DNA of 64,000 bases from Bartonella queenslandensis. Its GTDB lineage: Bacteria; Pseudomonadota; Alphaproteobacteria; Rhizobiales; Rhizobiaceae. Location: contig NZ_NAAI01000002.1 of NCBI RefSeq assembly GCF_018155095.1, positions 1 to 64,000 on the forward strand. The letters are read 5' to 3'. The notes under the pieces were generated by a model, which was not told the origin of the DNA, made no database searches, and worked only from the letters and a program-made list of their open reading frames with translations. Below, in pieces: positions 56,151 to 60,837 of the stretch. How positions within the stretch are numbered: position 1 is the first letter of the stretch; each line of letters opens with the position of its first letter. The translations under genes were made by a program, and so were the position numbers.

Positions 56151-56187
56151 CCTGTGGAGCTGATACATGCCGCATCAGCTCCACAGG
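56151..56187 (-). terminator. 14-bp hairpin just after cyoD
   Basis: CCTGTGGAGCTGAT / ATCAGCTCCACAGG is a perfect inverted repeat with a 9-base loop, seven bases after the cyoD stop. There is no T run on the minus strand, so it may protect the 3' end of the cyo mRNA as much as terminate it. Confidence 0.6.
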
Positions 56188-56193
56188 TATTTC

Positions 56194-57108
56194 TCACTCC
56201 TGTTCTACAGGAGGGTGCATATTTGGAACTTGCTCCACGGGCACTTCTGAACCAGGTACTTGACCTACAGGAGTTTGTATACTTGGAACTTGCTCCATTG
56301 GCACTTCTGAACCAGGAGCCTGATCTACAGGAGTTTGCATACTTGGAGCTCGCTCTATGGGCACTTCTGAACCAGGTATTTGATTTACAGGAGTTTGCAC
56401 ACTTGGAGCTTGCTCTAGGGGCACTTCTGAACCAGGTATTTGATTTACAGGAGTTTGCACACTTGGAGCTTGCTCTAGGGGCACTTCTGAACCAGGTATT
56501 TGATTTACAGGAGTTTGCACACTTGGAGCTTGCTCTAGGGGCACTTCTGAATCAGGTAATTGACCTACAGGAGCTTGCATACTTGGAGCTTGCTCTAGGG
56601 GCACTTCTGAACCAGGTGCTTGATCTACAGGCGTTTGCGTACTTGGAACTTGCTCCATGGACATTTCTGAGTCCAATACCTTTTCTGGCTGTTTTCTTAC
56701 GGATATATCTTTATTTGATAACTGCTCAGATACTGAAGAATCACCTACGCCTGATATTTCCGGTTCAATAACACGTCCTGAGCCCCCCATCATATTATAA
56801 TTCAAATGAGAAATAGCCCACCACGTACCTCCAATAACAATAAAAACGCAAATAGCAGCAAACCATAAAGCACTTAAATTCCACTTGGCATCTGGACCAG
56901 AATTCAAATGTAAAAAGAAAACAATTTGTACTATAATCTGAATAAGTGCCATCCCAATAAGATAGATAACCTTTGTACTAATTGCCCAACTTTCCATCAT
57001 TCCATACATCACAGGAATAAAAGAACCTAAGGTAAAAAATACAGCCAGAATAAAACCGACCAAATAGGAACCAACACTGGGACCATGTGTTTCATTTTGC
57101 ATGCTCAT
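56194..57108 (-). CDS. cyoD: Cytochrome o ubiquinol oxidase subunit IV with repeat tail
   Basis: 304 residues from ATG 57108 (AGGAGCG upstream, TGATG overlap with cyoC). Residues 1-~110 are a normal CyoD with three membrane helices (VGSYLVGFILAVFFTLGSFIP, VIYLIGMALIQIIVQIVFFLH, LWFAAICVFIVIGGTWWAI). The rest, ~190 residues, is extra: a spacer and seven ~20-residue Pro/Glu/Gln-rich repeats of the type TPVxQxPGSEVPxEQxPSxQ. Usual CyoD ends at ~110 residues. The tail is hydrophilic and acidic and would lie on one side of the membrane. Confidence 0.9.
   Translation of the reverse strand: MSMQNETHGPSVGSYLVGFILAVFFTLGSFIPVMYGMMESWAISTKVIYLIGMALIQIIVQIVFFLHLNSGPDAKWNLSALWFAAICVFIVIGGTWWAISHLNYNMMGGSGRVIEPEISGVGDSSVSEQLSNKDISVRKQPEKVLDSEMSMEQVPSTQTPVDQAPGSEVPLEQAPSMQAPVGQLPDSEVPLEQAPSVQTPVNQIPGSEVPLEQAPSVQTPVNQIPGSEVPLEQAPSVQTPVNQIPGSEVPIERAPSMQTPVDQAPGSEVPMEQVPSIQTPVGQVPGSEVPVEQVPNMHPPVEQE
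56215..56655 (-). repeat. 60-bp tandem repeats inside cyoD
   Basis: Seven in-frame units with a 60-base period plus partial units at both ends. Lines 56401-56460 and 56461-56520 are identical over the whole 60 bases and neighbouring units differ by a few bases, so recent duplication is evident. Confidence 0.95.
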
Positions 57109-57776
57109 CACAACGCTCCTAATAGATAAACCATGGTGAAAACACCAATCCATACAATATCAAGTAAATGCCAAAAAATGGAAAGACATGCTAAACGTGT
57201 TTTATTATTCTGATCTAAACCATTACGTCGAAGGTGAAAAAACATCACAACCATCCAAAGAAGACCGACACTTACGTGAAGCCCATGCGTGCCAACCAAA
57301 GCAAAAAATGCTGACCAATAAGCAGAGAGAATTTCCCGTCCAAAAAGCTGTAAACCCGTTGCAGGATCAATACCCGCATAAGCATTTGGATCGTAATAAA
57401 AGACTTCTCCCAATAATTCATGGAACTCGTAAAGTTCCATGGCAATGAAGCAACACCCAAATACAAAGGTTATAGCCATCCATAAACGCACACCACTGAT
57501 GTTATTTTTATGGGCTTGTACCATTGCAAAGCCATAAGTGACGGAGGAAAACAACAAGAAAGCAGTCTCAACCAAAACGAACTTTAAATCTATAAACTCA
57601 TTGCCCGCTTTACCACCACCATAAGAAGCAGAAAAGACAGCAAAACTTGAAAAAAGTGTCGAAAACAGAATCAAGTCTGAAAGAATATAGACCCAAAAAC
57701 CAAACGTCATTACCGAGCTACTATCGTGGTGAAGTTCATCCACAGTACTCTCATTATTCATTGTTACAGCACTCAT
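57108..57776 (-). CDS. cyoC: Cytochrome o ubiquinol oxidase subunit III
   Basis: 222 residues, five membrane helices, haem-copper oxidase subunit III family (FGFWVYILSDLILFSTLFSSFAVF, ETAFLLFSSVTYGFAMV, GTHGLHVSVGLLWMVVM). Overlaps cyoB by ATGA and cyoD by TGATG. Intact. Confidence 0.95.
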   Translation of the reverse strand: MSAVTMNNESTVDELHHDSSSVMTFGFWVYILSDLILFSTLFSSFAVFSASYGGGKAGNEFIDLKFVLVETAFLLFSSVTYGFAMVQAHKNNISGVRLWMAITFVFGCCFIAMELYEFHELLGEVFYYDPNAYAGIDPATGLQLFGREILSAYWSAFFALVGTHGLHVSVGLLWMVVMFFHLRRNGLDQNNKTRLACLSIFWHLLDIVWIGVFTMVYLLGAL

Positions 57777-59791
57777 ACTGTCACTCCTTGCTCTTTAAGA
57801 ACAGCTGTAAAGGCATCTTCAGTTTTTTGCACTTCTTCAGCTGGAATATAGTAACCATGGTGATCACCTGTTAATGAATGACACACAAGCGTTGCAACAA
57901 AACCAACCAGTCCGATCGCAACAAGCCACCAAATATGCCAAACAAGGGCAAAACCAACAACTAATGAGAAGAAGCCAGCAATAATTCCAGCTGATGTATT
58001 CGATGGCATATGAATTTTTGTAAATCCACTTGTCGGCCGTTGATAACCACTTTTCTTCATATTCCAATAAGCATCATCAGACTGTATCTTCGGAAGGTGG
58101 GCAAAATTATAGGAAGGAGGCGGTGAAGAGGTAAACCACTCAAGCGTACGTGCATCACCCCAAGAATCATTTAATGTTACTGGTAAGTGACCTTTATGCT
58201 TAATACCATACCAAATCGCCAAAACAACCTGTAAGACAAAACAAAGGATACCAAGTAAGATAATCAAAGCACCCAGAGCAGCAATAATAAACATCGGCTG
58301 CCAACTAGGTTCCATGTAATGCTGAAGACGACGTGTTGCACCCATTAAGCCAAGCGCATAAACGGGGAAAAAGGCTAGGTAAAAACCAATAAACCAACAC
58401 CAGAAAGATGCAATACCTAGTATGCGATTTGGTTTATAACCAAAAGCTTTTGGAAACCAAAAAGCAAGCCCTGCTAAATAAGCAAAAACCACACCTCCAA
58501 TAATTGTATGATGGAAATGCGCTATCAAAAAGAGCGAATTATGAAACTGCCAATCAGCAGGAACAATAGATAATAAAACACCCGTTAACCCACCACCAAC
58601 AAATGTAAAGATCATGCCCATACACCAAAGCATCGGAGGCTCAAAGCGAATCCGACCTTTATACATCGTGAGCAGCCAATTAAAGACTTTTACACCTGTT
58701 GGAACTGCAATGATCATCGTAGCAATACTAAAGAAGGTATTTACAGCTTCTCCGCCACCCATTGTAAAGAAATGATGTCCCCAAACAAGAAGCGAAAGAA
58801 TCAAAATAACCACCATGGCCCATATCATGGACGTATAACCAAAGAGGCGTTTTGAAGAAAAAGTTGAGACAACTTCTGACACAATGCCAAAAGCAGGAAC
58901 AACCAAAACATACACTTCAGGGTGGCCAAAAACCCAAACATAATTAATCCATACCATTGGATTTCCACCACCAACATTGGTAAAGAAATTCATGTTCAAA
59001 TAACGATCACATGCCAAGAGTGCAAAAGCAACAGTTAAGACAGGATAAATAACGACAATAAGAACATTGCTGACAAAAGCACTCCAACAAAAAACAGGCA
59101 TTCTCATCATTGTCATTCCAGGAGCACGCATTTTAATCATCGTTGCAATAAAATTCACTGATCCCATTGTTGTTGCAATACCAGAAAGCTGAAGAGACCA
59201 TAAATAATAATCTACCCCTGTATCTGGACTCGTTTGCAATTCTGTAAAAGGTGGATACATCAACCAACCACCACGACCAAAATTACCAACACCTAGCGAT
59301 ATATTAATCAAAATCGCCCCAGCTGCCGTAATCCAAAAACCCAGATTATTTGCAAAGGGAAAAGCAACATCACGCGCACCAATTTGAAGTGGTATAAGAT
59401 AATTAAAAAGACCAAATAAAATAGGTGTGGCCATGAAAAAAATCATGATCGTGCCATGCGCCGAAAAAATTTGATCAAAATGCTCAGGGGGCAAATAACC
59501 TGCTGTTTCACTCCCAAGAGCTAAAGCTTGATGCGTTCGCATCATAAGCGCGTCCGCAAAACCGCGAACAAGCATAATAATTCCAAGAATTATATACATA
59601 ATACCGATGCGTTTATGGTCAACAGTTGTAATCCAATTTCGCCATAAAATTCCCCACCACCTAAGCGCTGTTAAAGCTAAAACAGCAATCAAACCAATCA
59701 CAACAATCGCGATACATGTATACAAAACGATTGGTTCATGTGCAAGCGCATGAAAAGCACCTGCCGTAGGATCTGTAAGTCTTCCAAACAT
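57773..59791 (-). CDS. cyoB: Cytochrome o ubiquinol oxidase subunit I
   Basis: 672 residues. Catalytic subunit of the bo3-type quinol oxidase: reduces oxygen with electrons from ubiquinol and pumps protons. Conserved HGTIMIFFMATP (haem b ligand His), WVFGHPEVYVLVVPAFG (CuB His and Tyr), LLVWGHHFFTMG (CuB His pair), LIAHFHHTIIGG (haem ligands). About 14-15 membrane helices. Second gene of cyoABCD. Confidence 0.97.
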   Translation of the reverse strand: MFGRLTDPTAGAFHALAHEPIVLYTCIAIVVIGLIAVLALTALRWWGILWRNWITTVDHKRIGIMYIILGIIMLVRGFADALMMRTHQALALGSETAGYLPPEHFDQIFSAHGTIMIFFMATPILFGLFNYLIPLQIGARDVAFPFANNLGFWITAAGAILINISLGVGNFGRGGWLMYPPFTELQTSPDTGVDYYLWSLQLSGIATTMGSVNFIATMIKMRAPGMTMMRMPVFCWSAFVSNVLIVVIYPVLTVAFALLACDRYLNMNFFTNVGGGNPMVWINYVWVFGHPEVYVLVVPAFGIVSEVVSTFSSKRLFGYTSMIWAMVVILILSLLVWGHHFFTMGGGEAVNTFFSIATMIIAVPTGVKVFNWLLTMYKGRIRFEPPMLWCMGMIFTFVGGGLTGVLLSIVPADWQFHNSLFLIAHFHHTIIGGVVFAYLAGLAFWFPKAFGYKPNRILGIASFWCWFIGFYLAFFPVYALGLMGATRRLQHYMEPSWQPMFIIAALGALIILLGILCFVLQVVLAIWYGIKHKGHLPVTLNDSWGDARTLEWFTSSPPPSYNFAHLPKIQSDDAYWNMKKSGYQRPTSGFTKIHMPSNTSAGIIAGFFSLVVGFALVWHIWWLVAIGLVGFVATLVCHSLTGDHHGYYIPAEEVQKTEDAFTAVLKEQGVTV

Positions 59792-59865: not shown

Positions 59866-60837
59866 TTAAATAACATCAGGATCAAATACTGAACAAAGTG
59901 CACCCCACAGTGTCTGAGCAGCAGCACGCTTCATTAAATCTTCATTACATACCGTATTTTCATCGACACACCGATTAACAATACGATAGTAAAGCCGCTT
60001 CTCAACAGGTGCAAAATAACGAACTTCAGCATCTTTTTCCTTCGCAGCAATATCACCCATACGAGGCGCAATAGAAAGTTGACGATAAGACGCACGATCA
60101 AGAGCCCGTCCATTAGCCCGAGCTTTCACAATCCAATCCTCAAAATCCTGCGAAGACACAGAATGCCACTTAAACCGCATCCCTGAAAAACCATCACCGC
60201 TGTAATTTGCTGAGGTTCCTTTGAATACTCCCTGTTCTTCAGCGACCAAATGCAACTTGGCATTCATCTGCGGCATAGCGTAAAGAACTGTCCCTAATTT
60301 AGGAACCCAAAAGGCATTGACAGAATTTTCTGACGTCAATTGCAATAAAACTTGACGTCCTTTAGGTGCATAAATTTCATTGATGGATGCAACGCCATGT
60401 TGAGGATAAATAAAAACCCATTTCCAATCAAGCGCTACAGCATCAATCTGCAATGGCTCTCCTTCACCCACAACCTCTACTGGAAGAGGATTTGTAGGCT
60501 CAAGCTTATAGGTATAATAAGCTGTTAATGAACCTAAAACCATTACGATTACAATCGGGATACCCCACATTACTGCTTCAATTTTATTTGAATGCGCCCA
60601 GTCAGGAGAATAACTCGCTTTCGTATTCGATGCACGATATTTTATCGCTAAAAATACCACACTCACCATAACTGGAATGACAACGCAAAGCATAACAAGT
60701 ACACAAGCAATAATCAAAATGAGCTGTTGACGTGCGACATAACCTGACGGCTGAAGGACATCCATTTTACAACCAGTCAAAAACAGTGCTCCCCCTAAAA
60801 CTACAAGCATTTCTAATTGTCTAATACAGCTTCTCAT
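59866..60837 (-). CDS. cyoA: Cytochrome o ubiquinol oxidase subunit II
   Basis: 323 residues. Lipoprotein signal with lipobox LFLTGC (Cys22 or so), two membrane helices (LILIIACVLVMLCVVIPVMVS; AVMWGIPIVIVMVLGSLTAYY) and a periplasmic cupredoxin domain (FIYPQHGVASINEIYAPKG, NAFWVPKLGTVLYAMPQMNAKL) lacking the CuA ligands, as in quinol oxidases. First gene of the operon; 74 bases before cyoB. No cyoE follows in this window. Confidence 0.95.
   Translation of the reverse strand: MRSCIRQLEMLVVLGGALFLTGCKMDVLQPSGYVARQQLILIIACVLVMLCVVIPVMVSVVFLAIKYRASNTKASYSPDWAHSNKIEAVMWGIPIVIVMVLGSLTAYYTYKLEPTNPLPVEVVGEGEPLQIDAVALDWKWVFIYPQHGVASINEIYAPKGRQVLLQLTSENSVNAFWVPKLGTVLYAMPQMNAKLHLVAEEQGVFKGTSANYSGDGFSGMRFKWHSVSSQDFEDWIVKARANGRALDRASYRQLSIAPRMGDIAAKEKDAEVRYFAPVEKRLYYRIVNRCVDENTVCNEDLMKRAAAQTLWGALCSVFDPDVI

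Follow-up and report, generated by a model that had tools for sequence, protein, structure and literature searches.

CyoD of Escherichia coli has three transmembrane helices and a periplasmic C-terminus, and its chain stops two residues past the motif NYNMM. A proline-rich periplasmic extension is found in TonB, where it spans the periplasm and ends in a folded domain. In tandem-repeat antigens of other vector-borne pathogens, repeat expansion and turnover are generally attributed to host antibody selection, and the tandem-repeat proteins (TRPs) of Ehrlichia are secreted or located on the surface. The Ehrlichia TRPs are described as immunodominant antigens (PMC7486380), and four of the five VNTR loci used for MLVA of Bartonella henselae, BHV-A to E, are intragenic (PMC3428342, PMC2687025).

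The cyoD gene described here lies in a 64 kb stretch of Bartonella DNA (hereafter, the window) and shares features with each of these systems. Its product is like E. coli CyoD (6wti_D, TIGR02847) in the core sequence and in the cyoA, cyoB, and cyoC neighbors, but 197 residues follow NYNMM, 192 of which come after the GGSGR sequence. Like an Ehrlichia TRP, the product carries tandem repeats that are in frame, comes from a vector-borne pathogen, and is an antibody target (for Bartonella CyoD, according to whole-protein serology); unlike the TRPs, the Bartonella tail sits on a conserved inner-membrane enzyme. The combination of in-frame repeats and variable repeat number is the one that characterizes tandem-repeat antigens. 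The tail also resembles the TonB extension in being Pro/Glu-rich, probably extended, and anchored in the inner membrane, but it has no known domain at its end, and its length spans a more than tenfold range. With the B. henselae MLVA loci it has in common tandem repeats that are variable between isolates. In our view, Bartonella CyoD clearly exemplifies how a conserved subunit of the respiratory chain can acquire, in one genus, a repeat extension of free length.

Organization of the cyo Operon and of the cyoD Gene

The window is part of contig C2 in a genome of 2.03 Mb that belongs to a rodent-type Bartonella; the nearest named relatives of the window CyoD are those of B. tribocorum and B. queenslandensis, within the tribocorum group. 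The following features were recognized at the locus:

56194..57108, minus strand: cyoD, encoding subunit IV of the quinol oxidase together with the repeat tail, 304 codons plus stop, TIGR02847 above cut-off
56773..57108, minus strand: CyoD core, three predicted transmembrane helices, ending ...NYNMMGGSGR, phmmer match to E. coli 6wti_D
56671..56772, minus strand: proximal tail, non-repeated, 34 codons, the first 32 of which entered a comparison among 19 loci of this group
56251..56670, minus strand: seven in-frame 60-bp units (20 amino acids each, Pro mostly at every fifth residue), from TRF and the unit listing
56197..56250, minus strand: incomplete final unit and C-terminus, 18 codons, here ending ...PVEQE
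57108..57776, minus strand: cyoC, subunit III, open reading frame with PF00510 above cut-off
57773..59791, minus strand: cyoB, subunit I, TIGR02843 at 1065.4 bits (cut-off 1020.35)
59866..60837, minus strand: cyoA, subunit II, TIGR01433 at 287.1 bits (cut-off 266.2)

The order cyoA, cyoB, cyoC, cyoD on the minus strand is the operon arrangement by which subunit IV of a bo3 oxidase is recognized. The cyoC product matched the PRK10663 and CyoC profiles, both under their curated cut-offs (CyoC, 219.7 versus 223.75), and passed that of Pfam COX3. The cyoD start codon at 57108 shares bases with the stop codon of cyoC (TGATG), and the same MS-start is present in many relatives; our scripts took the ATG at 57102 as the start, which gives 302 rather than 304 amino acids. 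The CyoD core reached 112.4 bits with TIGR02847 (cut-off 81.45; residues 9-105 of the 302-residue version) and 43.6 with PF03626 (cut-off 28.9), and 75.7 with PRK10582, under the cut-off of 144. Inspection of the sequence had led to the original prediction of a normal-length CyoD extended by ~190 residues, and the 304 residues indeed divide into a core of 112 (to GGSGR) and a tail of 192. At their C-terminal ends, the CyoD proteins of the other 14 listed loci finish in ...PVE or ...PIE in 13 cases and in ...PME in one.

When the window was searched with TRF, the array appeared at 56204-56670 with a period of 60, 7.8 copies, 89% match, and a score of 668, and the sole other row in the 64 kb was a weak two-copy 21-bp repeat at 492-533 (score 56). 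The seven units of 60 bp that had been predicted were recovered both by TRF and by the unit listing (56251-56670), and three of the seven full units (units 3, 4, and 5) have the same DNA sequence, rather than the two that had been announced. The cyoD frame is open across the whole array. No further copies of the tail were found in the window's genome at E<=1. A match of the tail to Pfam Extensin_1 was rejected, being under the cut-off (60.9 versus 105).

Distribution and Length of the Tail

CyoD was present in 70 of 71 Bartonella genomes, the remaining genome being 86% complete. The comparison was based on 71 cyoD loci drawn from 69 genomes, two assemblies contributing two copies each, and left out G057, which gave no match, and G062, whose match runs off the end of a contig. 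The tail after GGSGR ranged from 11 to 192 residues, with a median of 70, in the 64 Bartonella loci that are free of N and have a stop; in 7 of the 71 loci it holds N or runs into a contig end, and the copy number of drafts is therefore uncertain. TRF arrays were detected in at least 38 of the 71 loci, a lower bound because G031 and G035 were scored as array-free despite N runs, and the periods of all 38 were divisible by three: 60 bp (25 loci), 18 (4), 45 (2), 54 (2), 30 (2), and 57, 141, and 21. Assemblies that consist of just one or two contigs (G066, G025, G022, G027, G064, G023, and G011) also contain arrays. A variable repeat number had been anticipated, and both the TRF copy numbers and the tail lengths across the Bartonella loci differ between species; repeat counting, which had been proposed as a check across isolates, gave a number that is not constant across these loci. 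A fixed-length periplasmic ruler or spacer is disfavored, because a tail of 11-192 residues, with its more than tenfold range, could hardly serve as a ruler; the tail might otherwise act as a spacer of another kind or as a binding platform, roles that had also been suggested.

Among the 59 loci from mammal-associated lineages, 33 have an array with a period of at least 30 bp, compared with none of the 11 from the clade containing B. apis, the host habits (mammal-associated versus bee species) being those that we assume for these lineages. The tails of the B. apis clade measure 26-39 residues, and weak 18-bp rows were detected in four of its loci. In other genera of the order, all of 40 sampled CyoD proteins had at most 13 residues past NYNMM (median 9), compared with at least 16 in Bartonella; the sample came from 39 genomes spread over families, out of a pool of 90 matching non-Bartonella genomes among 297 of the order, and one non-Bartonella record with 31% identity (L054) was not used. 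Three Candidatus Tokpelaia relatives had tails of 17-29 residues after GGSGR. Searches for homologous tails elsewhere gave matches in 45 of 289 genomes of the class, one of which was the window's own and the rest weak (17-44% identity), many with internal stops, and these were judged compositional. The same judgment was passed on 8 of 72,556 plasmid records that matched the tail, all at <60% identity and four of them titled "hypothetical protein" only.

Turnover of the Repeat Array

Repeat units were 81% alike within a locus versus 58% between loci (101 units from 23 loci, G051 being represented twice, with units kept if they matched a typed reference at 7 or more of 20 positions), a pattern to be expected if units are re-amplified locally time and again. 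The upstream and core DNA of the window is 97.1% identical over 3,229 bases to that of G066, which we take to be the B. tribocorum type strain, yet the arrays contain 7.8 and 4.8 copies, respectively. Two assemblies with duplicated contigs suggested that repeat number also varies inside a single isolate. In G051, contigs C1 and C2 carry two 74 kb stretches that are identical save for the cyoD array, where 27 versus 207 bases correspond to a difference of three units, and in G052, contigs C33 and C55 are identical over ~108.7 kb save for the cyoD array, in which a gap of 59 bp disrupts the reading frame of one cyoD copy, and for 14 mismatches at the edge of a contig. These duplicates would suit the presence of two repeat alleles in one culture, but they would look no different if an assembler had split at the array; the estimated contamination of the G051 and G052 genomes is 7% and 10%, respectively.

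In two further genomes, G001 (L106) and G007 (L138; presumably B. bacilliformis KC583), each represented by a single assembly, the reading frame of the tail is interrupted shortly past the core, tail-like remnants are found in another frame, and the core is intact. Judging from these sequences, the tail seems dispensable for the oxidase in G001 and G007.

Codon-level Constraint in the Tail

Differences within the arrays fell mostly on the third codon position (40.7, 27.2, and 72.0 at the first, second, and third positions). In 30 arrays, the pN/pS of 0.44 in the true frame was the lowest of the six frames, followed by 0.46 in the -1 antisense frame, a similarity that is expected where third positions coincide. 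When the frameshifted arrays of G017 and G052a were excluded, the remaining 28 arrays, which share ancestry and are not 28 independent tests, gave a pN/pS of 0.44 (bootstrap 0.33-0.57), compared with 0.74 +- 0.08 in a neutral simulation that distributed an equal number of changes randomly while retaining the observed transition bias; none of its 200 runs was as low. The arrays were the only segment simulated. By comparison between loci, dN/dS was 0.085 for the core and 0.46 for the proximal tail (19 loci of the tribocorum-grahamii group), and for the last 15 codons it was 0.441 without the window and 0.485 with it (14 or 15 loci). Since pN/pS in the arrays lies below the neutral value, the tail is read as a protein under weak constraint, about five times weaker than that on the core. 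Diversifying selection on the tail was not supported, dN/dS or pN/pS being <1 in every segment tested and the arrays lying below the neutral simulation. The suggestion that the tail might be exposed to immune selection was supported as regards a link to immunity (CyoD is a top antigen in cat serology, see below) and not supported as regards diversifying selection.

Proline Periodicity

The repeat unit can be described as four successive pentads, each with a proline, of the approximate form x-Q/E-x-P-x. In 46 tails, 466 Pro-Pro pairs were counted at lag 5 versus 96 expected. The periodicity was also seen in the 23 mammal-lineage tails that have neither a TRF row nor X, with 29 pairs versus 10.7 +- 2.9 at lag 5 and 36 pairs versus 9.8 +- 2.9 at lag 10; it was weaker at lag 5 when all 36 tails without a long array were taken together (30 versus 21.9 +- 4.0), and two tails with 30-bp units had no pairs at this lag (0 versus 1.3 expected). 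A proline at every fifth position is the clearest kept feature of the tail, and in the array-free tails it could have been left by the decay of old repeats.

Membrane Topology

The loops between the predicted helices of CyoD contain on average 0.00 (loop 1) and 0.99 (loop 2) Lys plus Arg residues per protein (70 loci, without G037), a pattern that by the positive-inside rule fits an N-in/C-out orientation, and the tail would thus most likely be periplasmic. A single-sequence AF2 model of low confidence (mean pLDDT 51) contained three helices and nothing of note in the tail, and Foldseek with this model gave no match at E<=0.001. Nothing useful on CyoD topology was found among the literature matches listed.

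Antibodies against CyoD and the Possible Role of the Tail

The genome G023, which we take to be very probably that of B. henselae Houston-1, encodes a CyoD with a 116-residue tail of 3.8 units, and the location of its cyoD near 167 kb suits the tag BH01250. When B. henselae proteins on a microarray were tested against sera from 62 infected cats and from 62 that were uninfected, 105 of 1433 ORFs were seroreactive, and the CyoD protein BH01250 ranked sixth by reactivity in infected cats (PMC2897887). The same study reports a mean CyoD signal of 37k in type I cats (n=10) and of 18k in type II cats (n=14), CyoD being among the two most significant type I/type II differences, and the word "repeat" is absent from its main text (PMC2897887). 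No description of the CyoD tail in Bartonella was found among the literature matches listed, which came mostly from papers open without subscription. We propose that the tail explains the antigenicity of CyoD, of which it is a likely antibody target; the serology concerns the whole protein, and binding to the core could account for it too.

Taking the sequence and serological data into account, we consider it fairly probable that Bartonella CyoD bears an accessory, disordered, and probably periplasmic repeat tail of free length that is the main antibody target of the protein. Such a tail would be made as protein; its DNA units would recombine, so that it grows and shrinks by whole in-frame units that become homogenized in each genome; and, on the periplasmic side, it might act as a length-tolerant flexible bristle or tether on the oxidase, unnecessary for catalysis. 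Its length, its repetitiveness, and its exposure when cells break open or release envelope would make it the main CyoD target of antibodies in infected animals.

A rather unlikely alternative is that the tail acts as an immune decoy or in antigenic variation, host antibodies having selected both the expansion of the repeats and their turnover. Such selection would fit the place of CyoD among the top antigens of infected cats and its type I/type II difference, as well as the occurrence of arrays of at least 30 bp in 33 of 59 mammal-lineage loci versus 0 of 11 in the bee-species clade and the differences between species that follow from homogenization of the units in each genome. It agrees less well with an array pN/pS below neutral that gives no sign of diversifying selection, with the inner-membrane location of CyoD, and with the short or truncated tails of some mammal-lineage loci, and the bee/mammal contrast amounts to one phylogenetic event.

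We also think it improbable that the tail is a near-neutral by-product, that is, a tolerated disordered segment without a role whose in-frame repeats expand and shrink by recombination. A length range of more than tenfold, the two loci with a truncated tail and an intact core, and a tail dN/dS ~5-fold that of the core are what such a by-product would be expected to display, but none of the 200 neutral simulations was as low as the array pN/pS, the proline at every fifth residue is kept across species, including the 23 tails without a TRF row, and a long tail occurs in none of the 40 sampled CyoD proteins of other genera. An untranslated or artefactual array, with a real stop near residue 110 or a faulty assembly, is extremely improbable, since the N or contig ends in 7 of 71 loci and the arrays that differ between the duplicated contigs of two assemblies are outweighed by the arrays of one- or two-contig assemblies, the codon-level constraint, and the frame that is open through the entire window array.

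The accessory, probably periplasmic tail that we favor gives a simple, testable reason why so small a subunit of an inner-membrane oxidase ranks with the strongest antigens in B. henselae serology. Its defined repeat peptide and its variable locus could be put to use in serology and typing. A bolder proposal, which we regard as speculative and distinctly doubtful, is that a respiratory complex of Bartonella has turned into the scaffold of an expandable antigen, the CyoD repeats absorbing antibody in chronic infection of mammals and their turnover separating genotypes serologically; if true, this would account for the difference seen between type I and type II cat sera.

Other Features of the cyoD Locus

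Just past cyoD, at 56151-56187 of the window, two 14-base arms separated by nine bases form an inverted repeat, the first arm of which, exact or with few changes, is found after the stop in most of the listed relatives. The inverted repeat may be a terminator, although there is no T run downstream on the transcript. On the plus strand, an antisense open reading frame of 205 residues with a GTG start (56154-56771) spans the repeat array; it is open across the array because the repeat period is divisible by three, and it is probably no real gene.
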